Of a stretch of DNA of 64,000 bases, positions 16,450 to 52,945 are shown one piece after another. The notes under the pieces were generated by a model, which had not been told where the DNA came from, did no database searches, and saw only the letters and a program-made list of their open reading frames with translations. Made by a program: the position numbers and the translations under genes. The stretch is from Phorcus lineatus (lineage: Eukaryota > Mollusca > Gastropoda > Trochida > Trochidae). Numbering within the stretch: position 1 is the stretch's first letter; the number at the start of each line of letters is the position of its first letter. The stretch is from positions 3,782,001 to 3,846,000 of the forward strand of contig OV121081.1 of NCBI GenBank assembly GCA_921293015.1. Direction: 5' to 3'.

Positions 16450-17859
16450 TTATTTCCAAGATGAAATACAAGGGCAAAGTAACCTTTTGCATTCGTTGCG
16501 AAATTTGATATTGCAGAAACTATACACGATGCAGTTTGCAGCACTGTTAATGAAGTATGAACGGAGGAATACATTATACACGACGATTCCTCCGCCCTGA
16601 AGCGAGTCCAGAAAGTCCGACTTGAAGCCTCGCGTTATCATGAGGATGAGGTGAGGCAGAAAACTGATTATAAACACCGCGGTGATTATAAACAACATCA
16701 ACGTTGTCTTTGATGTACGAGGAGAATTCTTGGCATCGGACCTTGCCGAATTGCCTTGTTTATTCCCGTCAAGCTTGACGAAGCTTGTAAGTTTAACACC
16801 GTTCGACTCCGGTCGCCTCGTGAACACAACTGTCTTAGGCTTCTTGAGACTGTCACTCTTGTCACTAGACAGCGAAGACCCAGTTTCAGAAACGTCCTCA
16901 ATCCCAACCTTCCCCTTGACCAAGCCCGTGGGTAAGGTCTTCCTGGGCGAGATCCAGGCAATCCGCTTCCCGTTCGTCGACGTCTTCCCGTTCCCTATGA
17001 GATATTTCTTCCCGTTCTTCTCCTTCCCGTCACTGGACGACAGCTCCGTCTCGGATGTGGAGTTCTGCGGAGAGTGGGACTTCCCGTCCGAGGTGGGCCT
17101 AAACTTGAACTTGCGATGAGTGAAGACGGTGCGACCGATGAGGATGTACATGATGATGAGGACACACAGGGAGCCGAAGAAGGTGAGGAAGAGGATACCG
17201 GTGTAGACGAGCGGGAACAAGGTATCCCGCCACTTGTCATCAAAAGAGCAGTCCACGCCTGTTATCCCCTCCCGGTCTGTTATCACTGTCGTCTGCCCGT
17301 TTACTATGACAGACGGGATGGTCAACACCAAGGCAACAGACACAGCGATGCCGACCATGATGCGGGACACCTTGATGCTGATCTGACGTTGTAGGGGGCG
17401 ACATATCTTCCTATAGCGGTCTATAGACACGGCGATGAGGGTGAACCCAGATGATACAACAGTAAAAGTGTTGTTGAATCGCAGGATCCTGCATATATTC
17501 GGGTACTCGAATGTATGCGTGTGTCGCATGTCCAAGATCTCTCCCGGAAGTGATATTGCACAAGTCGTCAAGTCAAAGATTGCAAGGGAAACCACGAACA
17601 CACGTGTCGGGCTAGGCTTGAACTTTTTCAGGTAAACGATCAAAACGAGAATATTTCCCACTATCCCTAGAAACATGAGGATGGCTAGATACACAACTGC
17701 TGGTATCATGTACGGGAACGTAACGTCGTCAAGGTGATTCAAGTACCTCCACTTCTCTTCCTCGGTGATGTTCGCCACTGACGTCATCTCTGGTGACGTA
17801 GTTGTCACGTTAAACAAGTGCGTCGTGTCTGTGAAAGCTATCGAGCCCGTTGTCGCCAT
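16450..17859 (-). CDS. Class A (rhodopsin-like) peptide-type GPCR
   Basis: A 469-residue seven-helix receptor in one exon, expected at the plasma membrane and coupled to G proteins. Start ATG at 17859 follows a likely acceptor (ttcacag). The N-terminus has N-glycosylation sites at N17 and N30. TM1 (about 50-76) has G68-N69; TM2 (86-106) has SLAIFD with D96; C123 at the top of TM3 should pair with C204 in the second extracellular loop; IDRYR (146-150) is the DRY motif. TM4 lies at 165-187 and TM5 at 213-243. A long Ser/Lys-rich third intracellular loop (about 244-383) precedes TM6 (386-410, FLP) and TM7 (425-448, N442-C-I-V-Y446). C457, C462 and C464 may be palmitoylated. It resembles molluscan orphan receptors often labelled cholecystokinin- or orexin-receptor-like; the ligand cannot be told. 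Unusual: no Trp is seen in TM4, Phe replaces the TM6 Trp, and Cys replaces the NPxxY Pro. Confidence 0.96.
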   Translation of the reverse strand: MATTGSIAFTDTTHLFNVTTTSPEMTSVANITEEEKWRYLNHLDDVTFPYMIPAVVYLAILMFLGIVGNILVLIVYLKKFKPSPTRVFVVSLAIFDLTTCAISLPGEILDMRHTHTFEYPNICRILRFNNTFTVVSSGFTLIAVSIDRYRKICRPLQRQISIKVSRIMVGIAVSVALVLTIPSVIVNGQTTVITDREGITGVDCSFDDKWRDTLFPLVYTGILFLTFFGSLCVLIIMYILIGRTVFTHRKFKFRPTSDGKSHSPQNSTSETELSSSDGKEKNGKKYLIGNGKTSTNGKRIAWISPRKTLPTGLVKGKVGIEDVSETGSSLSSDKSDSLKKPKTVVFTRRPESNGVKLTSFVKLDGNKQGNSARSDAKNSPRTSKTTLMLFIITAVFIISFLPHLILMITRGFKSDFLDSLQGGGIVVYNVFLRSYFINSAANCIVYSFCNIKFRNECKRLLCPCISSWK

Positions 17860-23400: not shown

Positions 23401-23744
23401 ATCCTCATTGGTCCCATGATGGTTATACTGAATAGCATCACGCACCCAAACTGACAGATGATCAGAAGCGTAATAATCATCATAATCATGGACATCACAT
23501 TCTCATTAACATGTTATTCATAATCCTCTTCAATAATTTTAGAATAACTTTAATCAAGCACAATCTCATTAAAATGAAATCTAAATGGTCCACTTCATTA
23601 CTTGTGTATTATCTGCGTAACGTCGTGCGGCAATATATCTGTTTTTAATGCAATTGAATTGGACCAAGGATTATCTTCAGATTCTACAACGTCTAAATCT
23701 AAATGCAAAACAGCTTGCAGTTCAACATTTCCTATGTAGTTATC

Positions 23745-23905
23745 GTACTTTAACACGAACAGGAGCCTGTTTCTCCAATCCTTCGGCAAATGTCAACACT
23801 GCGAGTGACACTTGAGCTACAATAGACTCGCTTGATAAACACCGCGTCATTGCATGAAGACACAGCCATCTCTATGCCTGATCTGAGTGTCTGAGATAAC
23901 ATATT
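23745..23905 (-). pseudogene. Block A copy 1: Cys-containing terminal-exon candidate
   Basis: Behind the acceptor-like 'gttatctcag' the minus strand reads TLRSGIEMAVSSCNDAVF, then IKRVYCSSSVTRSVDICRR, then IGETGSCSC and a TAA: about 46 residues with five cysteines in the second half. A second frame over the same bases also reads well (CLHAMTRCLSSESIVAQV, then SLAVLTFAEGLEKQ) and is the one that stays open in copy 2. Repeated copies at 26.3, 28.1, 36.6, 46.2, 55.8 and 61.3 kb show the segment was part of a duplicated unit. The family is unrecognised, the true frame is undecided, and most copies are broken. Confidence 0.35.
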
Positions 23906-26189
23906 GTTCAAGGGGACACTCGTCTCTTTCTTTCTCTCAAATATTCCACTATAGCTGAGAGATTTGAACACTTTTGGTTGTGAAGCTTTCATTTATCATT
24001 CAGGCTCCTTCAGCCAAATATTCCAGAGCATTTGTGTAAACATCATCTCGGCGAAACATCTATGAACGGAACGCTTTAAGTTAAGCCTCTTGAATTAATG
24101 GTCTAAAAGTTTGTAATCTCAGCAGTTTGATGCAAACAAACATGATAAATAACGTGCAGTTTGATTTACAATATCATCTAACTGATGGGACTATCATGCA
24201 CATCAAGTTAGAATAAAAATCATTTTGGTTTAGAAAGATTGTATTGTAGATCATGGTTTACGCCATTTCCCCAGCATTAACTGAAGGGTTTTCTGAAGCT
24301 TTATGAAATATCAAGAACAAAACAACACAAGATATTATCTGTAAACAATTGTGATATAAAAGGAGCATAATTTAACAACGGATTTACGTACATATAGACA
24401 ACCTAACAAAAATAATTTGCCTCAAAATTAAAATCTTATGTCAAAAACAGCTAATGACTTGTTATAAATTGCAAAATACAATGTAATTGTCACTAATCTT
24501 TTAAATTTAGTTTGGTTGGAACACATTGTAAGAACTTGATGTTTCCATTAAATAGAGTCTTCCGAAAATTTTCAAAAACTATTCAAACGATTCTTTCACT
24601 TTTAACATGACCATGACTTCCCGCGCAGACTTTTGCTCTCTAAAGAGGAATCTGTTTTAGGTCTGTAACTTTTTGAAACTGCAATTGGCTCTTAAACTTT
24701 TTATATGCATAATCTCTTAGCTTATTCAAAGCAAAGTAAGAAGAAGGAAGCTTTACATGACAAGTATAATCTCTCAACCTCAAGCTGGAGTCAGGTTTCC
24801 TTACGTTTAATTGCATGTAACTAGCAAACAGGAAATGCATGTGCATCTACAACCAATTAAACTCAAGTATTACATGCATTTTTTAAGTTGGAAAGATAAT
24901 TCATTCCATCCGAGAAGATGGTTCCAAACGTGAATTTTATAAAAACATCTGTATATCTAGTCCTAAGTTGAATACGTATATGAAATGACATCTTTGTTAG
25001 CACTTCATGCATAATGAAACATAACAGTTGTGTTGGCATCATTAAAAACACGACTAAATACAAAAACATTGCATTAGTTCATAAAAAAATGAAAAATGTG
25101 TTGTTATTATTACTTAAGATGAATAATAGAAGTATTTGCAATGAGATCAACTTGTTCTTTTTGTGATGTCATTTGTATTTTACGTTTAGTAAAGACAAAA
25201 TCAATAAGAATGACTGAATTATGAATTAATTGCACTTTCATTATAATGTTCCCAAATTCAAACTGATAACAAATCGTTGGTTAGCATCATAACAGACTCT
25301 TTGAAGAAAAGAGTTTCCATTGCTTTACGTTTAGGAACATTTCTGTAGATCAATATACAAGATTGATATTTTCATATATTAACAATGAACAAGGTGACCA
25401 TCGAAGAATGTTTTACTCTCATTCGTTATAATTAATTCTGTCACTCAATTGCAAGTTGGCGAGATATTATATCTGCAATCAAACAAGTTTACAAAGAATT
25501 TTGAAAGTTTGATGGACATTTCGGCAAATATTGAATAGAAACAAGTCTGTACTATCGTAGTAGAGGAGTTCAACATCAAGTGAATATGTCTTCAGATATA
25601 AACAATAAAACATAACGTATAGAACCTTATTTTGATTTTTTACAAGTATTAAGTACAAGAAGTTATTCACGTTTTGCCGTCAAATATTGATGATATTTCA
25701 CACGATAATGTTGAGGTTCAGTGCTCTGTAGCCCCAGATATGATTGCTTGGATTATCTTTATTTAGTCTCAGAGTTAAATCTGTCACTCAATGTCAAAAA
25801 TGAAAGATAAACTATCTCTGCAAAAAATATCAAATATATTAACTAACATCCTTTAATTTACATCCTTGAATTAAAAAAAATTACCTTACTAAATAAAATG
25901 AAAGTATGATATAATATAATTTATGATATATATATGATATAAATGATAGATGACTTCACACAAAAAATCCATGTCAGGGCGTCCCTATTGGTCCAATGGT
26001 GGTTATACAAAAAGAATCACGGACTCGGATCTACGGGTAAACAACTTCTTAATAATCTTCACCACACCACGTCATCCCATTTTCATTGATATGAAATGAA
26101 TAATCCTTTTTTTATAACTCTATAATTTCCTCAATCCTTGCAATGAGAGTTCTGTTAAGATATTTTCCCTCGTATTCATAAACCAAAAT

Positions 26190-26465
26190 TTAACACAACA
26201 GAACCAAGCATGATCTACAGATTCCATTGCGTATAAAACTGAATGCTTGCACTTCAACATTTCCTCTACAGGTATCGTTCTTAAACACGAACAGAAGCTG
26301 TTTCTCTAGTCCTTCGGAAAATGTCAACATGGCGAGTGACACTTCATCTACAATTGGCTCCCTTTCGGTTGATAAACATTGCATGATTGAATGAAGGCCC
26401 AGCCATCTCTATGCCTGATGTTCAGAGTGGCTGATATAAGATACTGTTCCAAAGGGTACGCGCTT
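26190..26465 (-). pseudogene. Block A copy 2: exon candidate in the alternative frame
   Basis: This copy keeps a 64-codon minus-strand frame that reads MQCLSTEREPIVDEVSLAML, then TFSEGLEKQLLFVFKND, then TCRGNVEVQAF. Downstream of the shared core it aligns with copy 1 in the frame starting at 23789 (LLFVLKYDN, then GNVELQAVLHLD). In the Cys-rich frame of copy 1 this copy has a TGA and has lost several cysteines. One of the two copies must therefore be frame-shifted; I cannot say which is ancestral. Confidence 0.3.
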
Positions 26466-27769
26466 CTTTCTTTCTCTGAAATAATCCACCATACATATAA
26501 CTGCGTTATGTGAACTATTTGTGAATATTTAAAAAAAAATTAGCAATAAACATGGTGATCATTGAAAAACATTTAAATGAAAAAAATAACTTTGCTTCTG
26601 CCCTCTTTTCGTATTCATATTGCACACGATGAGGAAATTGTTGATAGATTTGCAATCTCTGGATGTACTGCTTACTGATATCATACAAGAGCATACACAT
26701 ATTACCTCTTGACCCTCGTTGTCAAACAAATATTTTGATGTAATAGGCTGGAATAATGAGATTTTACACCATCATATCTAAGAATGAAACAGAAATCTTA
26801 ACAATACTTAATTAACATGCAGGTTAGCATACCAAAACTTGCTATTATTTTCTTTTCAAAAAGGCTGCTATAATCCAGTCATGGGTCTCAATGAGAGATG
26901 ACATCATTTGTATACTATGATTTATTCAACTGTTTATATGAACTCAAACCAACCAAAGGAAATCATCAGGAGAATGAATCACCACTGACAATCTGCACTA
27001 AAACCAAGAGTTCTGAAATCAAAACATTGATGCCACCCATCGTAATGTCATGTGCTCCATTAATTCAATTACACTAAAATAACTAATGCCAACTTGGATA
27101 AACTCTTCCTACAACAAACAGGTTTGAAGCACGGATATTTTATTGAAACCAGCAATGTGCTTTGAGTGTGCATTTGGAAACGAATTTAAGGAAGAGTTTT
27201 TCTTTCATAGGTATTTTGATTTTTGATGACGGTTCCATTGATTTATCGATGAGTGTTTATTTCGTGTTCAAGATTTGCCTTTAAAACCTCTTGAACGTTC
27301 AACAAAAACTATCAGTAATGGACACAGGCTTTGGTGCTAATGTGATTTGCATTAAATCCCTACATGCAATGTTTGCATAGAAAACAGTTTATTTACGACC
27401 ATTCTCACACGAAATGATTTTTGCAAAGCTTAAATCGCATCACAACAAACATCACACAAAGAAAACACTCTCAAACAGTTGTAAAACAGCCTGATATTTG
27501 ACAACTACAGAAACACTATAATAATGCTGATTTATAGTGAAGTAAAGCACAATCAACAGGCGACATCCCTGAAAATGTTTCTGTTGGTGCATTAAAATTT
27601 GAACTGTGATTACACATCTCCAAGGGAAATAATTAGAAAAAAAGAAGGTTTCGCAAGATGATACCATGTTTTGATATAGTGTGACGTTATATTTCCAATG
27701 ATTTCCAATGATTTCCATGATACAAAGAGAGAATATCAATTTGAAAATCTAGGATATTGGCAAACTTGT

Positions 27770-27830: not shown

Positions 27831-30800
27831 AATAGATCAGTTCTGCCTAAATGGATTCATATTTTTTAGAAAAAGGTAAATGTAAATTCAAAGAGATTAT
27901 ATTGTTTATAATTTCATAGTTTTTCTTTTTTTTATTCTAAAAAAACCTTTTTATGCATTAGGATTCGATTAATCATTTTTAAAAATTTGATATTTTGAAC
28001 TTTTGAAATATTATTTAATGTTGTTAAAATTATTTTTATCATTAGTGCAATCATTCATTGCTTGTAATATGTAATCCTAAATCTCAACTATCAACACTGC
28101 AAGTGACACTTGAGCTACAATCAACTCCCAAGAGACTCTGGCTTCTTTCTTTCTCTTAAATATGCTGTGAGATTTGAACATATTGTCTTGTGAAACTGTA
28201 AAGGGATACTTAGTATGTTATCGGAGTCAAATTTGTCAAACTCCTTTATTGGTATTAATTAATCGAGAAGCATTGGTTGTTTTTGAAGATCTCTTTCTAA
28301 GAGCTTATAAGTTCAGTATGGAGACAATAAACAGGTTTAAGTTGTTATATGTGATAGAAAAGCGGACAGTGGCGCGCGCCAATGACTCAAACGTAATTTT
28401 GGAAACTTTTCTACATCAGACATTATTTGTTTGTAGTGTTTAGTAGGTCATTTACCTGATATTCATGTAAAGTGGACGCAGACTTTCAACTTATTAACAT
28501 CAACATGGCTGTTTTTGTACTGTCATTGAAAGCAGGAAAATATTCTAATTTTGGCAATTTAGAGATAAAGATGCAAGTTTAGGGAGGACATTTGAATTTA
28601 ATTATTTGTAGATGGTATTTTGGCCATTATTGAAGCTACATAAAAATTGATGATATATACTCTGTGTCACTTTTAGTTATCACTTCAGAATCTTTCAACA
28701 GATATTATAGACAATGAGTGTAAACACGGACTTAGTAAAAGGCGAAACATGAATTTAAGGAACTAATGGTCTCAATTATGTAATTTTAGCAGTTTAATGC
28801 AAAGCGTTTATAACACTTGGGATAACATCAGCTTATCATCAGTGATGTTCCACGTATATCGTTATCTATGTTCGATCAAATTAAAAAACTATTACCACAT
28901 GACAGATGCTGTATGCGTTGACAGCCAGGTGTGAGCACTGTCAGTCACTCTCATAATCAATATTCAACACCTGTAGAAAAATAACGCGCAGTTTGATTTA
29001 CAATATCATACATGTATATCCATTTGAACTATTATTTGCTGTTAGCTGTCGTGCATATCAAGTTTGAATAAATGTCATGAATTTTGCATTTAGAAAGATT
29101 ATATCATAGATTATGTTTTACACTTGTTTTACATTTCTCCAACAGTTTTCTGAAGCCTTAAAGCACACTTTTGAAATTTCAAGCGAACATTGACACCATT
29201 ATTTGTAAACTTTTTGAATTATTAAGTTAATTGATTATTCTGGTATTTCAAATTATAAGCATATTATCCGTAAACAATAATTGATTAAAAGGGAGAGTAC
29301 AACAGACAAGAAATATGAACAACATTACCAAAAAAAGAGAAAGAAATTGTATCAAAGTTAAAGTCTTGATTCTTTATCAGATATAATCAATAAATTGTTA
29401 TATAATTCAAAATACAATGTAATTGTCAATAACAAATTTTGATATACTTTGGTTTGAACAAATATTTGAACTTTGATGTTTCCAGAAAAAAGGGTCTCCT
29501 GAGTTGTAACTTATTCAAAGCAGGCACGATTGACTTGAACAAGGAATGCTTATACGACAAGTATAATCTCTCAAACTCAAGTTGGAGTCAGCTTTCTGCA
29601 AGTTTAATTGCATGCAAATATCAAACAGGAAATGCACGTGCATCTAAAACCAATTAACGCAAGCATTACACGCGTTTTTGAGGGAATAATTTTATTTCAG
29701 CCTAAAAGATAAGTTCGAGCAGATGAATCATTTAGGTATCTCTATCTGAACGATAGTCTGAATTAGTTACGCTTATTAGATATCACATAACACATAGCTT
29801 CTGTGATAACACTGCAAGGAATATAAAATCATTGTATTTGTCAAAACGTTTGAAGTTACAAGATATTCCTTGAAGTGCATGTTCAGCAAACAAGGATTGC
29901 ATGGTTTATTTACCTAAATATTGCTCCAAAGATAGAAATGAATTTTTTAAAGCTTTGATAAGTAATTAAAGGAAACTGTCCTTGTAGTTTTCTGATTGAG
30001 AACTTTTTTGCAGTTCAAAACATCAGATGACTATCTTGTATGTAATAGCGAGCAACAAGGTCTTCATTGACAAAAGTTTGTATAAGAAAATTCAACTTTG
30101 CTGCTAATGTCATTTCATATTTGGATTAAGGAATTTGTTGACAGTTCTGCAGTTTATAGATGTTAATGCAGGGATTATTATCAACAATATTTACTCATAC
30201 ATTTTGTCTGTCACTCAGTGTCAAACCAGTGAGATAACATTTTTTTACTCTCACAAGGGTGCAAATAATTGTGAAAGTTTGAAGGAAATTTTAGTAAGTA
30301 TACAACAGAAAACAGTCTGCACTGTATTCACTGAGGAGTTCTACACCAAGTGAATAAGTCTTGAGGTATGAACAATTAAAAAGTTCTGTGTCGCAATATG
30401 TGGTAAGGTCAAACAGATATACATGTGCTGCCATCATATCATGTTGAGATTTTCCAAGATAATTTTGAGGTTCAGTTGAAGTCAAGTTTCTGCAAGTTTA
30501 ATTGCATGTACATAACCAACAGGAAATGCTTGTGGATCTACGACCAATTAAACTCAAATATTACATGAGAAAAGTTATTCATTTCATGTGTAAAGACACA
30601 TGAATCTTTTAATGTACATCTTTACCTCTAGATGAGTCATAGCCTCAAATGAATATGCTTATTTAATGAGTTTATTAATAGACATTCATATCAATGAAAC
30701 ATAGCAGTTAGTTTTCATCATCAAATGGATGCTGTTGAAAATTTTATGGAAATGTTATTGCATAAACAATAGTAAACAGTCTGTACCGTACATCAAGTGA

Positions 30801-31040
30801 TTAAAATGGTGAGTTATGAGCAATACAAAAACTGTGTTGTAATCACACATATTCAAACAGTTATACACGTGCTGCCATCATTTCATTTCACACGATGATG
30901 TTGAGGTTCATTACTCTGCAGCCTACCGATATGACTTCTCAAGATATGACTACATAGATTATCTTTATTTAGTCTCATACGTTCCATCTGTCACTCAATG
31001 TCAATAAGAAAGATAAAGTATCTTTAGGTATAAGGTGAAC

Positions 31041-32384
31041 TGCTTTAATTCATATGCTTGGGATTTTAATGTTTATGAATACAAGTCTGTAAATAATGGA
31101 TATATTTACGATATTTATATCATATAAAGGTATATACATGACCGGTCACTGACGAACTTCAGTGTTAGCCAAGGCCAATAGAATTTAATCCTTTTTATTT
31201 GAGAAACAAAATTCCCTTCATAAAACCCAAGTTAGCTAAAAAAACATTACCATAGTTTTCAATTAAGATTTTACAGTTAATGTCTGTACTGAAGGTCGCA
31301 TTACCTCGAGGTCGTTATTGGGTACAAAGACATTCCACATTGTTACATAATACATAAACTAATATTGATAAAAAGAGGTGTGCGGATCAAATCATTTGTA
31401 CATAATCATTTTCAAAACATTGCAAGTGACTTCAAGATACTTTTAGTTTTACATTATAACAACCGTTTCTGATGAGATATTGGAAATAATTAGGTTTAAG
31501 TTATTTTTCACTCGCTTGAAAGAAAAATACAAAGCGAAAATGAAATTCATCTTCGAAAGCATTTGAATTACACTTATCACAATTCAAATAAGATGATTGA
31601 AAGTATATTAGTGTTAAAACGCTTCATTTGTACACTGATGTTAAAAGCTCAACATCTCAACCAATCCAGGGCTTGCAATACATCAGAATCAAATCAAAAT
31701 CTTGTTCAAATAAAGTCTTACATGATGCATATGGGTTTTAAAGGTTGAATCGTTTCTTATACCAAGCTTGTATGTCTAAATCAATACAACTCCGCTTAAA
31801 CTCTGACATGAAAGTGTGTTCCTTTCCTCAGTCTTGGAAACTCCAGGCACAAGCATAACCTATTTGAAACATTAGCATCCTCAATTAGAAGCTCAATTGA
31901 TTCTACCATTTTCAATGACCAATTACATTATTGTTAATGCTATGAATTATCCAACTGTTTAAATGAATTTAAACCAAACAGTGGGATAGGTAAGTCACTG
32001 ATAATTTGGACTAAAAGTAAGTGTTCTTGAAATTTAAACATTGAACCTATGCACCCATCAGTATCTGATGTATTCTATAAACTCCATTACACAAACATTG
32101 CTGGTATATGTTTTGATACACACTTACTCACTCTTCAGTCTCGAGTTCACAATTTGTGTGATGCTCGGTTGGTATTGGGTATGTCATATAGGTGGTATGT
32201 TTCGAGGAGCGGATAATTGATTCAATCTTCTGAAGTAGTAAGGTTTTATATCGTATTTTGGATTTATCTTTAAAATCCCAGTTATGATAAAAATTTCAGT
32301 TACAACAAAGAATATTAGTGACATTTATAAGGTTTTTAAATGATCGAATTTTAAGTCATATTCATTAGGCTCTGTGTATGGAAG
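31041..32384. other. Non-coding stretch between D2 and E2
   Basis: No gene, RNA or strong repeat was seen; AT-rich, with one chance 61-codon frame at 31563. Confidence 0.5.
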
Positions 32385-34841: not shown

Positions 34842-35580
34842 TCAGTATCTGATGTGTCCGCCATGAGTGTCATAAACAGCAACACAGTGTTTGTGCATTG
34901 AATGTACCAGTCGATTGATGAGTTCCATCGGCATTTGGAACCATAGGTTTGGAAAAGTCTGGCGAAATAAATTGGCTCTGTTTGGTCTTTGCATGACGTA
35001 ATTCAGTCATCTCTGAATTTTAATCCCAAAGATGTTCAATCGGACTAAAATCCGGAGTAAGGGCATACCAGTGCATAACGTTGAGACCATTCTGCTGTAG
35101 AAAGTCCCATGTAGCTCTGGTTGAATGGACGCGGGCGTTGTCATGCTTGAAAATGTTGTTCCGTTGATGTGCGAAATGGGGAATGTCGTGTGGTATGAGA
35201 GCTTGGTTGAAATAATGCACTGCTGTTATGCGGCCTCCTCTCCCTGAACCAAGATTCTGTAACACCACGGGACCCACTCTCTGGTTCAGGCCGATTCCAC
35301 CCTAAACCATGATGCTTGAAAATTCCCACGAGTTACTCTCCTACATTCATCTGTGAACAGAAACCTTCTCCATTGCCGGTGTCGCCAGTTTAGGTGTTGT
35401 TTTGCAAACTGCAGACGTTCACTCCGATGACGAGGCGTTAGGATAGGTCCACGGTAAGGTCTACAGCAATGGAGGTTGTCTCTGGTTGTCTACCCTGTGT
35501 TCCCACTGTCTGACGTGCTCTTTCAGATTCCTGCGTGATTCTGTTGTCGCACCACATGGCAGTCCTGACGTCTGAGTAAT
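34842..35580 (-). pseudogene. Tc1-like transposase, degenerate
   Basis: The minus strand encodes about the C-terminal two thirds of a Tc1/mariner-superfamily transposase, broken by frame changes. From the upstream side I see RPYRGPILTPRHRSERLQFA, then NWRHRQWRRFLFTDE with the first catalytic Asp region. In the next frame come FKHDNARVHSTRATWDFLQQ (second Asp) and TPDFSPIEHLWD (the Glu region). The C-terminal VHSMHKHCVAVYDTHGGHIR leads to a stop at 34842. The frames must be joined by at least two shifts, so it is inactive. The DNA-binding N-terminus was not recognised beyond about 35580. Confidence 0.88.
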
Positions 35581-35605
35581 TGATTTGGGTCTAGAACCTC
35601 GAATA

Positions 35606-35655
35606 CCTTATTATGAGTGAATGAGTGAGTTGGGGGCCTAACACCTCCAATTTCT
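35606..35655 (-). repeat. Single inverted unit of the 43-bp repeat
   Basis: This short segment (ttatgagtgaatgagtgag, then ttgggggcc) is the reverse complement of a unit of the 35.9-36.3 kb array, placed beside the Tc1 remnant. About 300 bp of unrelated sequence separates it from the main array. Confidence 0.6.
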
Positions 35656-35849
35656 TGCGTGTATGCAGCTTAAATCCTAACCTATGGAAACGGCGCGCAT
35701 AAACGGGTCCCTTTGAACCAGGTTGGTATACATTGGAAGGCTTTGATGCTACATATGTATGTGCTGTAACTGTAAGTGTACCGTGACGACTCGTAGCCTC
35801 GTAGAAACGTAGCCTCGAAACCCTTACTCACTAATTATAAAGAGGTGAA

Positions 35850-36300
35850 TGCCCAACTCTCTCACTCACTCACTCATAAAGGATCTGGAGGTGCTACAAT
35901 CCAACTTACTCACTGTTCCATTATTTGGAGGTGGAGGCGCTTGACCCCAGCTCACTCACTCATAATAAGGAATTGGAGATACTAGACCCCCAACTCACTC
36001 ACTCATAATAAGGAATTGGAGATACTAGACCCCCAACTCACTCACTCATAATAAGGAAATGGAGATACTAGACCCCCAACTCACTCACTCATAATAAGGA
36101 ATTGGAGATACTAGACCCCCAACTCACTCACTCATAATAAGGAATTGGAGATACTAGACCCCAACTCACTCACTCATAATAAGGAATTGGAGATACTAGA
36201 CCCCCAACTCACTCACTCATAATAAGGAATTGGAGATACTAGACCCCCAAATCACTCACTCACTCATAATAAGGATTTGGGGGTGCTAGACTCCATCATC
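35850..36300. repeat. 43-bp tandem repeat, about 8 copies plus diverged leaders
   Basis: The unit reads 'aaggaattggagatactaga' followed by 'cccccaactcactcactcat' and 'aat'. Copies from about 35965 to 36270 are nearly identical, one lacking a C and another with an extra CACT. Flanking units at 35870-35960 and 36270-36300 are diverged. Confidence 0.93.
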
Positions 36301-36496
36301 ACCCACTCATGATAAGCGTGTAAGTGTGATTGTAATATGAACGTGTGTTCACAGACAAAGGTCAACATCACCTTCATCTACACATAAATCAAATGCCTTT
36401 TAGTCACTTCAACAGGTCCAATAAATGCATCGCCAAACTTTGTAGTACATGTTTTCATAAAATGTTAGCTAAGCATTATCTACAGATCCCAAACGT

Positions 36497-36720
36497 TTAG
36501 TGTTCTGTTTCCTTAATGCAAAACAGCTTGCAGTTCACAGTTTTTATAAAGTTTATCATTCGCGAACAAGAACAGAAGTCTGTTCCTCCAATTCTTCGGC
36601 AAATGTCAACACTGCGAGTGACACTCGAGCTACAATCGTCTCCCGTTTCGCTTGATAAACACCGTGTGATTGCATGAAGGCCCAGCCATCTCAAGTGGAT
36701 CTTCAGAGAGGCTGAGTTAA
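36497..36720 (-). pseudogene. Block A copy 4: exon candidate, frameshifted
   Basis: Reading the minus strand from the 'ctcag' acceptor gives LSEDPLEMAGPSCNHTVFIK. After a one-base shift it continues as DDCSSSVTRSVDICRRIGGT then DFCSCS. The Cys pattern matches copy 1 (CSSSVTRSVDICRR), so this frame is shared by two copies about 13 kb apart, while both carry differing small indels. The alternative frame (RWLGLHAITRCLSSET) is also partly open. Non-functional as it stands. Confidence 0.35.
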
Positions 36721-37039
36721 CGTTCTGAGGACATATCTTTTTTCTAAAAAAACTTGAATTGGATTGAAGGGTTTAGTGTTTTAAAACGAACGCCAAAACG
36801 CAACTGATATTGACATGTTTTGTAGCTGCCCCTGCTGAGAAGCACATTTATGATATTTGTGTCTTAAAAACGTTGTCTCGTAAATAAAGTTGTACATAGT
36901 TGGAATATTTTATTTGGTTACAACTTTGTAATAAAATATCTGAATTTGAAGACCAAAGCGGTGTGTTGTTTATTTATACCGTTTAAAAACACAAGCTTCC
37001 ACTGCGTTACAAAGATTTTGAACGTTTTGTGTTATTTAG

Positions 37040-37260
37040 CTTTAAATTATCATTTCAAAATCGTTCGACAAATATTTCAGAGCATTTCTAAACACCGCCT
37101 CTGTAAAAGCCGAAACATGAATGTACGGAATGCTTAATGTTGATTTCGTGGTTTCAATGGCCTCAATTTTTGTAATCTCACCACTTTTATGCAAAGGGTT
37201 TTAAACATGTGAGTTAACATCAGTTTATCTTCAGTGATGTGCCTTGTAAAGAAGTCCAGG
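37040..37260. repeat. Block B copy 3, first part
   Basis: Aligns with B1 and B2 through 'gccgaaacatgaatgta', 'atggcctcaatttttgtaat' and 'aacatcagtttatcttcag'. The remainder of block B resumes near 38280, after the fold-back element and unaligned sequence. Confidence 0.55.
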
Positions 37261-37433
37261 AATGAAGTTTGATAAACATTTAACGTAGAGAGAAATAATT
37301 TAACGTGAAAGTTAACATCAACATCATGGCGCCATGGTAAAGGCATGAATTTTCATCATCCTCCCATTCGTACCAGTTATTTTGTGTTAGTTCTAGTATT
37401 CTAAGACAGTTATATATATATAGTCGTTTGCAG

Positions 37434-37500
37434 AATCATTTTAATCCGATACTAGTATTTCGTCAATAGTATTGACTCATCAGGGATGAAACGATATGAT
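37434..37500 (-). ncRNA. Type I hammerhead ribozyme (left arm)
   Basis: Mirror image of the ribozyme in the right arm, encoded on the minus strand. The core CTGATGA is the complement of 37477-37483, stem II is the GTCAAT/ATTGAC hairpin, GAAA follows, and cleavage is predicted between the complements of 37448 and 37447. Confidence 0.85.
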
Positions 37501-37809
37501 CGTTAACATCGCGTTACAAGCGTTTTTATAACAAAATATACGTACAATGTACAATGCTATATTGTAAATTATGCTAATCAGGTGACATCATGGTACTTCC
37601 TTGTTGGTCTTCTGATTGACACAATCACTCTCTCATGAGTTTACCCCTTGAGCAATATGTTAATGTGACATAATCTCTTTTGTTTTGAATAGTTAGAGAT
37701 ATATGTCAGCGATTTAAGGGTATGTCACCTGATTAGCATAATTTACAATATAGCATTGTACATTGTACGTATATTTTGTTATAAAAACGCTTGTAACGCG
37801 ATGTTAACG

Positions 37810-37876
37810 ATCATATCGTTTCATCCCTGATGAGTCAATACTATTGACGAAATACTAGTATCGGATTAAAATGATT
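37810..37876 (+). ncRNA. Type I hammerhead ribozyme (right arm)
   Basis: All core positions are present: CTGATGA (37827-37833); stem II G34-T39 pairing with A43-C48 around the loop ACT (37834-37848); GAAA (37849-37852); stem III TAC/GTA with a 2-nt TA loop (37853-37860), then T37861-C37862. Stem I is ATCC (37823-37826) with GGAT (37863-37866), extended beyond an internal loop by ATCAT (37810-37814) with ATGAT (37871-37875). Self-cleavage is predicted after C37862. Stem I is open, hence type I. Short stem III hammerheads of this kind are known from animal retrozymes, Penelope-like elements and satellites, where they often need dimers to work. Confidence 0.88.
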
Positions 37877-38279
37877 CTGCAAACGACTATGTGAAGTATG
37901 TTATATTCAATCTACATGTGACCTTGCGTTTGAACCAATTCATCTGTTCATATATATATATATATATATAACTTGACCATTAATCTGTCGTTTTGTTGAG
38001 TACTCAAGACTAGTTTCAATGAATATAGAATAAGATTATTCTTTATTTTGTTAGTCAATATTTGACGTAAATTATAATGTCCTTCTCAAGAAGGTGGCTT
38101 TTGCAATATTTACAACAAACCTTCGCCGTTACAGATAAATGACTTATTTATCCAAAAGTATTTTACATTTTTCAGATTTTTTTAAGTCAATCAGATACGA
38201 TCTTTGTTGAAAGATAGGTCACTCCGTTTACATATCAAAAATAGAAACATAATTGAAAATCCAACTACTCATGTTTTAG

Positions 38280-39725
38280 TTGTCAGTATCAACATCCACA
38301 TAAGATTATTAAACTATCATAGATGCAGATATGCAGTTTTATGTACATCATAAATAAGTTTCAATTACTCTTTGCTGTAAACAATCATGAACATCAAGCT
38401 TAATACAAACCATGAGATCTTCGCCTATGAAGACAGTAATATATAGCTGGCTGGACACCATTTCACGGACATCAATAAGTGGATAGTTTTCTGAAGCTTT
38501 CTAACACATTTGCAATAAAAACACACAAAATGAGACCATTAGTGTCATCATTGATACTGTATTAATTAGGAAACAGTCAAAACTTTATCTTCACATAACA
38601 ATTATCTGTGTGATTATCAGTGCTAAAAATCAGTCGACAAATTTCAGGTAAATAAGGACATTTCCTCAAACTTAATCAAAGGCGTATTGATTTCATTATG
38701 CAATGTATGTTATTTAACGCTAAATCATTTAAGAGAACTTTGAGTTTCCTGAAAGTAGGGTCAGTGTGACCTTTTTGAATAATGCTTTAAACTAGCGGCT
38801 GTTCAAAAGCCTTTTTTTTTTTACTAGAGTGACACTTGAAACACATGATAAACGTTTTCCTGTCGTAAAAATACTTGTTTACATTCGAGAAATCTTTAGT
38901 TGCCTGCAACTTAGGCAAACTGCAGTTTTCTTTTCAACTTCCTTGTGCATATTCGTTGAATAATAAACTTATTCAAAGCATGTTTATCACACTTCAACCG
39001 GGAAGGCTACATGACAAATATAATCCCTCACCATGAAGTTGGGACTTATGTTCCTGAATGTTTTATTGCAAATAACTGCAGACAGGAAATGCTGTGCATC
39101 TAAAGCTCAATAAAACGCATGTATACTTGCATTTGTATGCAGAAGGTTAATAAATTTTACCCGGAACGACAACGTGGAACATGTGAGTTGTAAAACAAAC
39201 ATCTGTATATATAGTTAGGTTTTGGCCTCGAAGGAAAGCAACAAATAGATGGTGATTAAAGATTGGATGTTGTTGAAGTTTAATATTAGTTGGTTGGCTG
39301 TCAAACATGACTTGAATATGAATGCGGCCATCAATGTGGCACTGTAGCATCAAGATATGATTGTAGGCTTTATTAAAATTATTTTCTTTCACATGTCAGT
39401 ACAAATCAAAGAGGTGAGACAAACTATCCTAAGTGATACACATCTACAGTGATTTTTGTAAATACAGGGTAACAGATACTTACAACGTACAAATTCACAC
39501 CAAGTGAGAAAATCTAAATACATGATAAATAAACGAATGAGAAATTTGAAAATCAGATAATAAAGGTCGTGCTGTCATGGTGTCATGATGATATTTCACA
39601 TGATAATAATGAGGCTCATTGCTGTGCATCATCATTGGGTTATCTCATTCACTCTTATGGGTAAGATAAGTCGCTTAATGTAAAATAAGATCGATAAACT
39701 ATCTCAATCTGTGTATCAGGTTGAA
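38280..39725. repeat. Array blocks B3 (second part), C3, D3
   Basis: B3 continues at 38280-38500 (shared 'ggatagttttctgaagcttt'), C3 is at 38935-39145 (shared 'caggaaatgctgtgcatcta') and D3 at 39590-39725 (shared 'gataaactatctc'). The order and orientation match the left part of the array. Confidence 0.6.
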
Positions 39726-41689
39726 TGCTCAATTTCAAATGTTTGAAATTTGGAACTTTACCATTCTTGGTGTATGAAAGTCTCAGAATAATGATGTTAA
39801 TTTCATCTCTAAATAATACATGTTAATTTTATTTTTGAATAATCTTTGTTGTCGGATTAAATGTATGTTGACAAATAAAATTTGACCTTAGGGTTGACTA
39901 TCAAATATTTCCTCAAAATCAGGAGATTTTGAGATGTATTTGTACTTTTTTGTATATTTGAAAAAAAAGTAGTATTAGAAAAGTCTGGAGCTGCAATTTT
40001 TATTCATTTCCCCCACAGTTCTCAACTTAGGAACAGGTGTCGTCCTTTCCTCATTCTTGATACTCTTACTTTAAATGAAAATGGACATGAAATTTGATGT
40101 GGTAATAAGTGATTAAAACAGATGTATTCAAAAGAAATGTTTTGGTACAAGTTGTCTAAGTGAGATTCTCCCCTATGTAGGGGAAACCAGGGCACATTGG
40201 GACAAAACGCTATTTTCCAGTGTGTTCGTAATCTATGAAGACAATAATATGAAACCTCGTAGATTTAAAGCAACCTTGAGTGTCAAAATATGAAAATAAG
40301 AGACAATGAAATATAACAACAAACTGTATGTATAAATGAGAAATAAAAGAGCAAAAAATTTTGTACCAAACTACCCCACCCTGGGTAATGAGACATGAAA
40401 CAGTGAAAACAGGGGAAATATCCATATCTGTAAAAAATAATGATTAAAGATACATGACTTCCTTTCAATATCATCAGCCCCTCTTAGCATTGTATGCTTG
40501 AAATGCACTCTTGAAGATATTAATGCCTCTTATTTGTATAAGGATATGTAAGTGATAATTTACTAAAGAGAGAAAAACAATGAATTTTCCAGCAGTGTTA
40601 TAATCCAATTTTCAAAACTCAAAAGGGTTATGTATTTTTGGAAGTTCTTTTAAAGACTCTAAATATCGTCCTTTTCAAGAGGCTGAACAATCATTATTAA
40701 CAATTAGTCAAAATTTATCAGTGCTATTTTGTTGCACCAACGTTACAAAATAATTAATGTCTTACATTTTAAAAAATAGTACATTGCATGAAAATAAGGA
40801 GAAGAATTCATCGGATTGTCCGCTAGACCATTATTATATAGCTCATAGTTTCATCTGGTTGTTATATTCTTTAATGGTTTTTTTATGTCTTTTATGTTTA
40901 TTTCATGTAAATAAAGTTATCTCTTTTAAACTGAACTTATGAAAGTTATTGAAATGGAGATAAGTAGTTTTCGAGTGTCTACAAACCTAAACATGGGTTT
41001 CATAAGTTGTGATTAACTTGCGGAGGAAATTGCAATAGTGAAATCACATAACTTTGCTTCTGGTGCGAAGTCACGTGTCATAGAGATTTATTTTCTAATC
41101 ATTATAATCAATGAGGCTACTACAGGGAACATTAAACAAACGTTTAAGCACAGAATCATGAGGAATGTCTGCAAGTAAAAGAGAAGTTGCGGATAGACAC
41201 CAACCTTACAAATATTTCCATGTCCATGAGTCATTTAGATTTTTAAGTGAGTTTCTTGTGCGGATGAGTTTAATTAATGATTCCACCAATATTTTGATAT
41301 TAAATACGCTAGAAAAAAATACCACGTTTCAAATTATAATTTTACATTTATTTAACTATAGACGATAGGCAACGTCAGCCAATATTTTTAAATTATCAAA
41401 AAAACCTCACAGGTTTCTTTTTTGAAACGTTTCTTTTCTTATTTCTTTTCATTGATATTGAATAATTCTTTGGGATTGGATGTCGTTGATATTGGTGTTT
41501 CTGTGAGCAAAGATCAAGTAATGTTAATCTTTTATTCACCTGTCTTCTCTGTAAGCTCAGTATGGAGAACAATCAAACAAACACTACATAAAACTTTCGG
41601 TTCAAAGCATGTTGTGCTATTATGGATTGTAGTCGAAAGTTTGCAACGTCTGTAACGAAATCTGTTCATCTATGGTAATTCTTACAAAA
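39726..41689. other. Non-coding stretch between D3 and E3
   Basis: AT-rich, with chance frames of 61-77 codons and no recognised domain, RNA or repeat. Confidence 0.5.
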
Positions 41690-49144: not shown

Positions 49145-49321
49145 TATGTAAACAAACATCTCACAACAACATACAATTTCAAAGAAAGAAAAACAGCAAG
49201 ATAAGTTGACACCAGTAAGAGAAACAACAATAAAGAAGATCACGTCAGACTACCTATCAGCACAGATTGTCTTTGAAATTACTTCCCTGGAGATAAGTAT
49301 ATCTGTTTGTGCTTTAAACTT
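49145..49321. repeat. Block E copy 4, part left of the insertion
   Basis: Aligns with block E3 up to 'atctgtttgtgctttaaactt', where the TIR element interrupts it. The right part of the same block resumes at 51892. Confidence 0.6.
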
Positions 49322-51891
49322 CAGGCCTACCAAGGTAACGGATCAAATAACCTCCAAATGGAACAAATAACCGCATGAATGGATTAGATTACCTCCAAAA
49401 CGGTACAAATAACCTCGTCAGCGGTATTAATAACCTCAAAACGGAACGAATAACCTCAAAACGGATTCGCGCAGCGCATCCCTACGATCTACCCAGTTTG
49501 ACTGAAGGAGCCCAGTCTTTTGTTTATGTTTACGCCAGCGGCTCTCATTTTGCCTGATAAAAAAACAAAACAATTAAAAGGTATTTAGGCCTACTTGAAT
49601 CCAAAAGTTACGGTAATCTAATGATGATTTGGTCACCGACACAATAATTTTAGGCCTACTAAAATTTGAAAATATGTATTGTGGTTACGAGAATCAACAA
49701 TAGGCCTATCTATATTTGCAAATGGTGTAATAAATGAATGAACCAGAAGAAGTACCTAAAAAGTTTTAAAAAATTGAAATATCAAATTACATTTTCTTCG
49801 TAGTTCGCTGGTTTGAAGTCTGCCTAAATTTAAAAAAAAAATTCTTTATAAAGTATTCCCCGTTTGGCTTGTAGGCCTACTTTTGTTTATGAACAGCTGG
49901 ATAGTCAATGATGAGACATGTGACATGGAAAATGTATTAAAGGTTTCTATATGTGTTGAATGTAACTTTTTACTACAGATATATGAACTAACTCCAAAAA
50001 ATAATGTTTACGCAAAATATAAAGAGGATATCAAAAGGTTTAGAATTTTTTTTAAAATCTTGTTTCATCATAAAGATAGAATATAGTTAAGTACAATGTT
50101 GACATTGTTCCGAAATAACCAAACTTGAATATTATCAAAAGATTAATATTTCAAAAATACCAATTTCTCTGAATGAATTATTTTTATTTCGAGATATTGT
50201 CATTTTTTCTTCTTTTTTTCTCTGATATTATTCAAAAGCTAGTGTCGATGAATGAAATACAAAAATTCACAAGTTAAAAATCTGTACTAAATATTCCAAA
50301 TCGGAGGAGGCTGTTTGTCACTAATTCTAAAAAAAATATTTTTTACATCATTTTGTTCAGAATAAAATTTTGTACCAGAAAATAATTAAGGTGCATGACT
50401 GGGAGTTCGGTCCAGCAAGCAAGGACTGGTTATGCATTGAAAATGAGAGAGAAAATCAAGGATAATTCGTGCTGATAATATTTCAAACAACGTATCAATC
50501 GTTATAAACTTAACCCGGAAGTGTAGGAAATCTATTCAGCTTTATATGTTCCAAATGCAATAATAGTTTATAACATCGATTACATCTATATCATCTTAAT
50601 ATTTGAACGTCGATCTCTCATTGTAATCGCCAAACCAGGAATCATATGTCTATACGATCCCTGGCCAAACAAACCGGATCAAAAAGTCTGTATCAGTCTA
50701 CACCACACAGAGATCTTCAAATCAAGATATTGAGAAATTATTTTCATATTGTACAAATTCCATTTAAAACTAAGGAGAGAATACATTTTTGAAGCTGAGA
50801 GTTGAAGGATTTATTTACTTTTAATCTCGAATAGTCGTGAAATATACAATCTACACACTTGTGACATCAGCTACGGAACGCATCGGGGAAAGTGTCAACA
50901 ACTCACTTGATGTCTGCGCCGGTCATCATTAGACCCATATTTTGTTTGTTATTTTCGCAGTAATTAAGCACAAATAGAATCTTATTTGATGTTTGAAATT
51001 TCCATATTTTCATGGATGTAAAAAAAGTCGTGATATTTACATATTATTAAAAAATTATTTGAGATAGTCCCCTTTACATGTCCCTTCCATTTGCTATCAT
51101 TATTGAGAATTAACACTTGCGATTTTGTTTGAAAACGGATAAATTTCTATGAAGGACAACATTCCAAACTAAAAATAGTGAACAACAAGACCTCTACAAT
51201 TAGATCTATAATCGTACAATAAAATTATATTTACACTATAAATAAATTTGTGATCTACGATTTTAGTGCGTGTGTAGCAAAACTCAAATTCGCCGCAATA
51301 CAAACTCAACTAAAACTATCGATCGATTACAGTGTCACGTCATATCCAACACGGTTCATGCATGCGAACATAGTTACGATTGAATTTTTAGATTATCTGG
51401 TGGTAAATGTCTTCTAGTTTGATTGTAGGGCTATATGAAAATAACATCAACATTTGACAAAATCTACTCACAGGGATTTTATTCGTGACCGAATCCTGTT
51501 TCGCGATCGCTTGGTGTACATTATGCAAATTATGACCTCATCGGGTCAAAGACAGCGAATAGAACACCGCGGTTAAGATGAAATTACGACATTATAATGA
51601 TTTTTTTATTTATGGGGGAAAATTTCACTGCTAGCGTAACTTTGTTGACAGCCGCTGGTGTAGTCTAAACATAAAACAAAAGACTGGGCTCCTTCAGTCA
51701 AGCTGGGTAGATCGTAGGGATGCGCTGCGCAAATCGAGGTTATTGAATCCGTTTTGAGGTTATTCGTTCCGTTTTGAGGTTATTAATACCGCTGACGAGG
51801 TTATTTGTACCGTTTTGGAGGTAATCTAATCCATTCATGCGGTTATTTGTTCCATTTGGAGGTTATTTGATCCGTTACCTTGGTAGGCCTG
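49322..51891. mobile_element. 2.57-kb non-autonomous TIR transposon
   Basis: The termini are CAGGCCTACC and GGTAGGCCTG, flanked by a 5-bp direct repeat AACTT (49317-49321 and 51892-51896). TIRs are about 220-240 bp (49322-49544 and 51650-51891), nearly identical, with small indels at their inner ends. Each TIR contains about six copies of a 20-22-bp subrepeat built on 'aataacctcaaaacgg'. The interior is AT-rich with no transposase frame, so it must depend on a partner. Four near-copies of 'taggcctac', matching the terminus, lie just inside the left TIR. The superfamily is not evident from this much. Confidence 0.88.
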
Positions 51892-52945
51892 AACTTTGCA
51901 ATGTGGTGACATTTGTACAAAACAGTCGGAGAAAGATCGTGAACTTTTCACCAGCTGTGAAGTTAATGTTATGATACATTTTGATGATTTACAATAAGAA
52001 GGATTTACAGGATACCAAAAGTCACAGAAGAGTTAATATGTGTGAAGTTCGAGGATATTTGCCTACTTGTTTGGTCACGTCATGCAAACACGTGCATAAT
52101 TAGTGCACACGTGCACATTCAAAATGAGAGGTTACCAGCGGAGGTTCTGCATCAATGACGTTAAAGATTGGGTAATGGTGGTCTCGGTGTCGGTACATTA
52201 AATGCAGGATGACTATCGCTAACGTTTTTCATTTTACTTCATATCTAACTAAATTTTCGTTAGGATTAGCAAATATACTTATAAGTTTAGATGATGCAGT
52301 GGATCAGTTTGATGTTTTATAAAAACACGTACCGTTTGCATATTAACTGAAAATCTTAACTGACCTTTCTAGATGACATTTGAAAATATTTTATCCAGAA
52401 TGAACAGACACATCAGGGAAAGGTTATCCAGCTATTCATCTGTACCAAACATCTATTGCAGCAAACTAAATTGGAATGGAGTGACTTAACTTGCAATGTA
52501 ATTTGTGTTTAAGGATTTAGAAATGTATCTAAGAATGTAATTTTAACTGTTTGTTTGTGTATCATGCATGACTGATACAGCCGCTGATTCTTTCATAAGG
52601 ACCTCTTATATCCACATTGATGTATCGAATCTTGACAATAAGAACTTATCCCCAGTAAACAATTTTTAAGAATGATTTGGAATGAAATATTTCATTATTT
52701 GAACCTCTAGGAATTTCTTTCAAAATATAAAGTATATTGTGCCGTTTTATCGTCTTAGATTGACTAAAATGGAACAGGTTACGTCATTTGCCCTCGATGT
52801 ATTCACACGACCAGCCGTTTCGACAGCTGCAGCACTGTTGTTAGACAGGGGGAAATAACAAAGTGAGGATGTCTTTGATTTCGATGTGTTTCCCGTTACA
52901 TATGTTCCAGCTTTGTATGTTCACTTTGATGCCTCAACTTCCTTT
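51892..52945. repeat. Array blocks E4 (right part), F4, G4
   Basis: E4 continues from the insertion to about 52135, F4 lies at 52395-52490 and G4 at 52780-52945. G4 shares 'gacagctg', 'ggatgtctttgat' and 'tgatgcct' type strings with the G block at 43.9-44.1 kb. Confidence 0.6.
52077..52125. promoter_or_regulatory. Conserved double E-box segment, block E copy 4
   Basis: CACGTCATGCAAACACGTGC followed by a second CACGTG 19 bp downstream (52089-52094 and 52108-52113). It is the best-preserved relative of the 42.1-kb segment. Confidence 0.45.

Follow-up and report, generated by a model that had tools for sequence, protein, structure and literature searches.

Two hammerhead motifs lie on opposite strands, facing each other, in the 64-kb window (the whole stretch of DNA analysed here), and this arrangement raises the question of what kind of element places them there and whether they work as a pair. 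The initial annotation had described two opposed hammerheads in a perfect inverted repeat, and comparison of the arms bears this out: they are 100% complementary and each contains a hammerhead core. The palindrome had been placed at 37423-37887 with 166-bp arms; the palindrome stands, but the arms are 169 nt each (37420-37588 and 37722-37890) with 133 nt between them, and the full insert runs over 37420-37950. The features on which the following analysis draws are listed here, where PLE denotes a Penelope-like element, numbers with a sign are element positions relative to the hammerhead cleavage site, and the source of each assignment is given in brackets.

37420..37588, minus strand: left inverted arm (inverted-repeat comparison)
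37722..37890, plus strand: right inverted arm (inverted-repeat comparison)
37815..37875, plus strand: type I hammerhead motif of the sense copy, predicted cleavage after C37862 (core and stem inspection, structural descriptor)
37435..37495, minus strand: type I hammerhead motif of the other strand, identical through the inverted repeat (descriptor, inverted repeat)
37420..37722, minus strand: left PLE copy, antisense, comprising the left arm (169 nt) and the spacer (133 nt) (BLAST map against family copy L029)
37722..37950, plus strand: right PLE copy, sense, with a tailed 3' end, tail at about 37913-37950 (family copy map)
37589..37721, minus strand: spacer of left-copy sequence, which in the element lies 3' of the PLE stop codon and 5' of the arm (copy maps)
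37410..37422, no strand: left (TA)n target, containing the start of the left copy in CTAT at element +28 (same end in L049 and L060)
37951..37970, no strand: right (TA)n target, following the tail, which ends in TTCA (sequence)

Both arms carry the core CTGATGA / GAAA / UC, arranged as in type I hammerheads; C37862 occupies the cleavage position, and the three stems can pair in each arm, as had been claimed. Stem I comprises 4 bp, an internal loop and 5 bp (pairable), stem II 5 bp (GTCAA/TTGAC), and stem III 3 bp when the core-adjacent A-U is counted (AUA/UAU around CUAG, then UC and, past the cleavage position, G). Helix III thus consists of two pairs beyond the core A-U and the tetraloop CUAG, which is the form given for invertebrate hammerheads in the extracts of PMC7229834, where a palindromic tetraloop is also described for an amphibian hammerhead. 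A structural descriptor that required the core and the three stems matched these two sites only in the 64-kb window, and had no match in 150 first-order random 64-kb windows. The covariance-model check that the initial annotation had proposed did not come out in its favour: in the Rfam scan of the whole window no family reached its gathering score, and the best hammerhead match was to Hammerhead_3, a type III model, with 16.7 bits (E 1.5) against a cutoff of 48.5. For a 71-nt stretch, the hammerhead fold was calculated at -4.0 kcal/mol versus -9.7 for the minimum-energy fold, and the folding energy of this stretch was no better than that of shuffles (z 0.36). A transcript of the entire repeat is predicted to form one long hairpin (-319.5 kcal/mol). 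Since the Rfam score is below gathering level, the hammerhead fold is not the most stable one, and the whole-repeat transcript folds as one hairpin, we treat the hammerhead as a putative ribozyme, that is, as a sequence motif with the conserved core and three helices. Among 73 mapped copies, 54 have the same haplotype, and a simple string test for the core is passed by 66 and failed by 7; this retention is uninformative on selection because the sample was chosen by the hammerhead pattern or the arm. For the Anolis PLE, it has been reported that hammerhead mutants still inserted in vitro and that the ribozyme cleaved only when the protein was present (PMC11167929). Pattern scans of viral contigs gave no match, one of the two patterns having the wrong spacer length.

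The motif is abundant in the host. In the 958-Mb genome, a 31-base pattern from the hammerhead 3' half had 815 matches with at most 2 mismatches, and a reversed-pattern control had none. A search with the arm gave 920 first-look candidates, 40 of which were scored, with at least 41 matches listed; the working set comprised 86 loci, some of them overlapping. The copies examined have the arm in common. Their truncation points 5' of the hammerhead vary, and 3' of it most of them stop at either of two sites, beyond which lie simple repeats, (TA)n in most cases. The proximal (tailless) end, ..TTTAATC, lies at +50 from the cleavage site and maps to +55 where the (TA)n target matches the next tail bases; the distal (tailed) end, ..TTTTCA, lies at +88, 38 nt further on. 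Both ends precede varied targets, the proximal one also TC and TATC repeats, and single copies divide into 28 with the proximal end, 19 with the tailed end and 3 with another. Target-site duplications are unreadable within (TA)n. With respect to the arrangement of copies, which the initial annotation had proposed to survey, single and inverted (head-to-head) copies were found, but no tandem array among the mapped loci. Specifically, the first 100 listed pattern places (contigs C1 and C2, no mismatch) contained 13 neighbour pairs no more than 2.5 kb apart, which were head-to-head in 11 cases, tail-to-tail in 1 and direct in 1. Two full arms facing inward were present at three places among the first 30 loci (the window, L015/L018 and L021/L022).

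Longer copies reveal the nature of the element, as upstream of the arm they enter an open frame that encodes a CxxC region and a GIY-YIG domain, the latter scoring above cutoff in the upstream frame of L022 (E 6.8e-8). A genome search with a reverse transcriptase (RT) piece gave 388 candidates, and frames of 787-789 aa were among the best of the 150 that were scored. In L086 (597 aa of a 788-aa frame), RVT_1 was matched with E 3e-6 and 27.5 bits, 2.1 bits short of the curated cutoff of 29.6, and is followed by a GIY-YIG domain above cutoff (E 4.7e-7); the DNA 3' of the L086 stop is the family's common 3' sequence. The shorter RT pieces of L065 and L046 matched no RT family. RT and GIY-YIG in one ORF were therefore seen in relatives and not in the truncated window copy. 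Canonical Penelope-like elements have both domains in one frame (PMC11167929), and an optional 30-40 bp tail and AT-rich targets have been described for them (PMC11167929, PMC3846280). Moreover, an inverted pLTR is part of the typical Penelope structure, the commonest inverted arrangement being head-to-head, with the tail optionally on one of the inverted pLTRs (PMC3846280). The present family likewise has head-to-head inverted pLTRs with an optional tail on one end, and the copies examined have AT-rich targets, variable 5' truncation and preferred 3' ends. The sole hint of a direct pLTR-ORF-pLTR order is in L006, where a sense piece ending at +44 is followed by a sense piece that starts in the ORF at -710.

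Neither hammerheads in PLE pLTRs nor inverted PLE ends are new (PMC7229834, PMC7761336, PMC3846280), and the window feature is an ordinary PLE insertion, of a kind of element already known. An aside in the initial annotation, which mentioned inverted copies as in some Penelope-like LTRs, was thus close to the mark, given the RT and GIY-YIG of family members and the PLE-like 3' ends. Its premise of direct tandem repeats as the sole setting of PLE hammerheads is at odds with the literature, since the inverted pLTR is typical of Penelope (PMC3846280), and the new fold-back family or special replication intermediate that it had entertained is not needed, the feature being two overlapping PLE copies head to head. 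In addition, opposed RT matches (minus then plus) in long open frames, 2-3 kb apart, were noted at C9:57206441/57209165, C2:45859060/45861486 and C9:2944128/2946396; these may be near-full-length head-to-head copies of this and other PLE families.

The left copy in the window spans element +28 to -286 (BLAST against L029), and the right copy -140 to +88 (map against one family copy). They meet head to head in a plain join with a 1-nt overlap at 37722. The spacer is assigned to the portion of the left copy that extends further 5' than the right copy, and at least its first ~20 nt adjoin the arm in 26 of 28 other aligned copies, the exceptions being L024 and L028. At +28, the left end uses a minor start site inside CTAT beside (TA)n, found also in L049 and L060, and the left junction is ambiguous in that its last bases, TAT, are assignable to either target or element. 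Because the outer flanks differ between the arms and near-identical copies lie at other genome sites, an assembly fold-back artefact, which the initial annotation had considered possible, is unlikely. The surrounding region is present in three diverged direct copies (window 23600-26600, 28000-31100 and 36400-39900; ~60-88% identity in blocks), a pattern that suggests an old local triplication. The insert is contained in a ~1.1-kb segment of the 36.4-39.9 kb copy that is absent from the 23.6-26.6 and 28.0-31.1 kb copies; an exact empty site was sought in these two paralogous stretches and not found, as they are too diverged.

Elsewhere in the window, a second inverted pair at 49316-49547 and 51646-51897 gave a 252-column match with 90% identity, measures ~2.6 kb overall and has 20-bp tandem repeats in both arms; judged by its sequence, 49316-51897 looks like a terminal-inverted-repeat element. 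The window also contains an uninterrupted 469-aa frame for a rhodopsin-family GPCR on the minus strand at 16450-17859 (Pfam 7tm_1, E 3.6e-34), which points to an animal host, and a tandem array at 35945-36316 with 8.6 copies of a 43-bp unit, of which an inverted partial copy is located at 35573-35656.

To compare the two ends of head-to-head pairs, pairs were collected by script from the working loci and ten loci repeating another were dropped, which left 34 head-to-head rows, with L055 and L056 being halves of one pair. Five loci (L081-L085) had been fetched as known pairs, end type disregarded. Outer ends were classed as proximal (P) from +44 to +66 and as tailed (T) at +77 or more. Both ends could be classed in 21 pairs, and 19 of these combined one P with one T end, while 2 were P/P (L008 and L081) and none was T/T. 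From the single-copy end counts, mixed pairs are expected at 48%, and the probability of at least 19 out of 21 is 5.8e-5. On inspection, the P end of L006 proved to be an internal joint; without this locus, 18 of 20 pairs are mixed (P = 1.1e-4). The 13 unclassed rows include the window pair (+28/T), which falls outside the 21 because its left end is a minor third site. Within the 19 mixed pairs the P copy extends further 5' in 12 and the T copy in 3, with 4 equal within 10 nt (sign test 0.035); the ratio is 11 to 3 without L006 (sign test 0.057). Arm identity within pairs (16 opposed pairs, one tail-to-tail) showed no general excess over that between other loci, and for this reason one shared RNA template for both arms is not established. 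In the PLE literature searched, which covered hammerhead-bearing PLEs in part, a rule of one tailed and one tailless end was not found as a statistic, the nearest being the remark on the optional tail. Several antisense and sense PLE fragments occur within one locus in L006 and L060, and these multi-piece inserts suggest repeated template switching.

The window feature is very probably a short, 5'-truncated insertion of an endonuclease-bearing PLE, with a type I hammerhead motif in its 3' region, that was made by two-ended priming. The PLE endonuclease would cut both strands of an AT-rich target, and each freed DNA end would prime reverse transcription internally on the element RNA, one end starting at the distal (tailed) site and the other at the proximal (tailless) site. 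Joining of the two cDNAs would leave head-to-head copies, whose overlap is the perfect inverted repeat. For the window insert, synthesis from the left end would have begun at the minor site at +28 and run for ~300 nt, and synthesis from the right end would have begun at the tailed site and run to -140. The hammerheads would then be the element's own motif copied twice, and their opposition a by-product of insertion rather than a working pair. Both strands of AT-rich DNA are cut and extended in vitro by the Anolis PLE protein, and the purified protein, a predicted dimer, initiates at two neighbouring positions within the RNA (PMC11167929). The pairs in the genome point to a tendency for the two ends of one event to use different start sites. 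We more tentatively propose, as something that could almost as easily be right as wrong, that each insertion pairs both start sites, perhaps with each subunit of an RT/endonuclease dimer serving one of them, and that the tailless strand usually runs further; no start-site difference between strands was reported for the Anolis PLE protein (PMC11167929), which counts against this paired-site step.

Head-to-head structures and inverted repeats of PLEs have previously been explained by self-priming on an antisense template (PMC3846280), according to which the inverted arm arises when the first cDNA, or an antisense template, folds onto itself and serves as its own primer. Such an origin would fit the window arms, which are 169/169 identical and thereby exceed all 50 other-locus comparisons (maximum 0.994), though by a margin of one base, and it would also fit the palindromes reported at inverted junctions (PMC3846280) and the 4 of 19 mixed pairs with inner ends equal within 10 nt. 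However, a copy of the longer left arm could not contain the 60 nt (+29 to +88, tail included) that are unique to the right arm, and two independent starts are needed. The tailless copy is the longer one in 12 of 19 mixed pairs (11 of 18 without L006), and the tailed copy cannot derive from it; the plain inner join in the window likewise speaks against folding back. The excess of tailed/tailless pairs (19 of 21) thus favours priming from both target ends, and we consider fold-back self-priming improbable.

Mobilisation by a PLE of a metazoan non-LTR retrozyme, a small, tandem, circRNA-forming element inserted here in inverted form, is less probable still. PLEs are the proposed helper of retrozymes, whose invertebrate hammerheads have a similar short, tetraloop-capped helix III (PMC7229834), and L030 has two direct copies with the same truncation point, 593 bp apart. 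The longer copies, however, run upstream into the PLE ORF and not into a repeated 150-450-bp monomer, and L030 is the only direct case among the 13 close neighbour pairs from the first 100 listed places; because the flanking (TA)n is included, it looks like a local duplication. The mapped loci held no array of three or more tandem ORF-less monomers and, apart from the direct pair in L030, no non-coding direct tandem repeats of 150-450 bp. Paired full-length arms with differing interiors had also raised the reading of a transposon with terminal inverted repeats (TIRs), which was rejected after end mapping. The perfect 169-bp arms, the three places among the first 30 loci with two full inward-facing arms, and TA or AT as a conceivable 2-bp target duplication would all suit a non-autonomous DNA transposon (MITE or fold-back) with hammerheads inside its terminal inverted repeats. 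Yet the position of the inner ends changes between loci, numerous copies stand alone, the two outer ends within a pair are usually unlike, and RT and GIY-YIG are encoded by the family. Fixed symmetric termini with a constant target-site duplication, as in TIR elements or MITEs, were not seen among the mapped copies, the duplication being unreadable in (TA)n, and we regard this origin as extremely unlikely.

How PLEs insert is relatively little known (PMC11167929), and the family offers a large natural data set on this process. If each insertion does pair the two start sites, head-to-head PLE copies would be direct footprints of two-ended target-primed reverse transcription. The pairing of tailed with tailless starts, which argues against fold-back self-priming, is testable across genomes, and the fuller hammerhead of this PLE is relevant to the connection that has been proposed between PLEs and retrozymes. 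It is in the excess of this pairing and in the tetraloop-capped helix III that the present observations go further than known PLE structure. PLE hammerheads have been called minimal, lacking helix III or loop contacts (PMC7761336, in extracts), whereas that of this family has a fuller helix III capped by a tetraloop. Metazoan non-LTR retrozymes, as far as extracts of PMC7229834 describe them, share a type I hammerhead whose helix III is short and capped by a tetraloop, but here no tandem monomer array was seen and the longer copies are part of a coding element.

Endonuclease-bearing PLEs such as A. vaga Pen2 and Anolis PAc resemble the family in the order of RT and GIY-YIG within one ~790-aa frame, in the head-to-head inverted ends with an optional 30-40 bp tail on one of them, in the AT-rich targets and in the hammerhead motif of the terminal region. 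The targets of the present family differ in being mostly (TA)n, and the hammerhead of the Anolis PLE overlaps the ORF start. In LINE-1 twin priming, the second target strand also serves as a primer on the element RNA, with an inverted segment as the result. Second-strand priming on element RNA and the inverted segment would be common to both systems, whereas here both ends favour particular internal start sites, and overlap of the copies yields long perfect inverted repeats.
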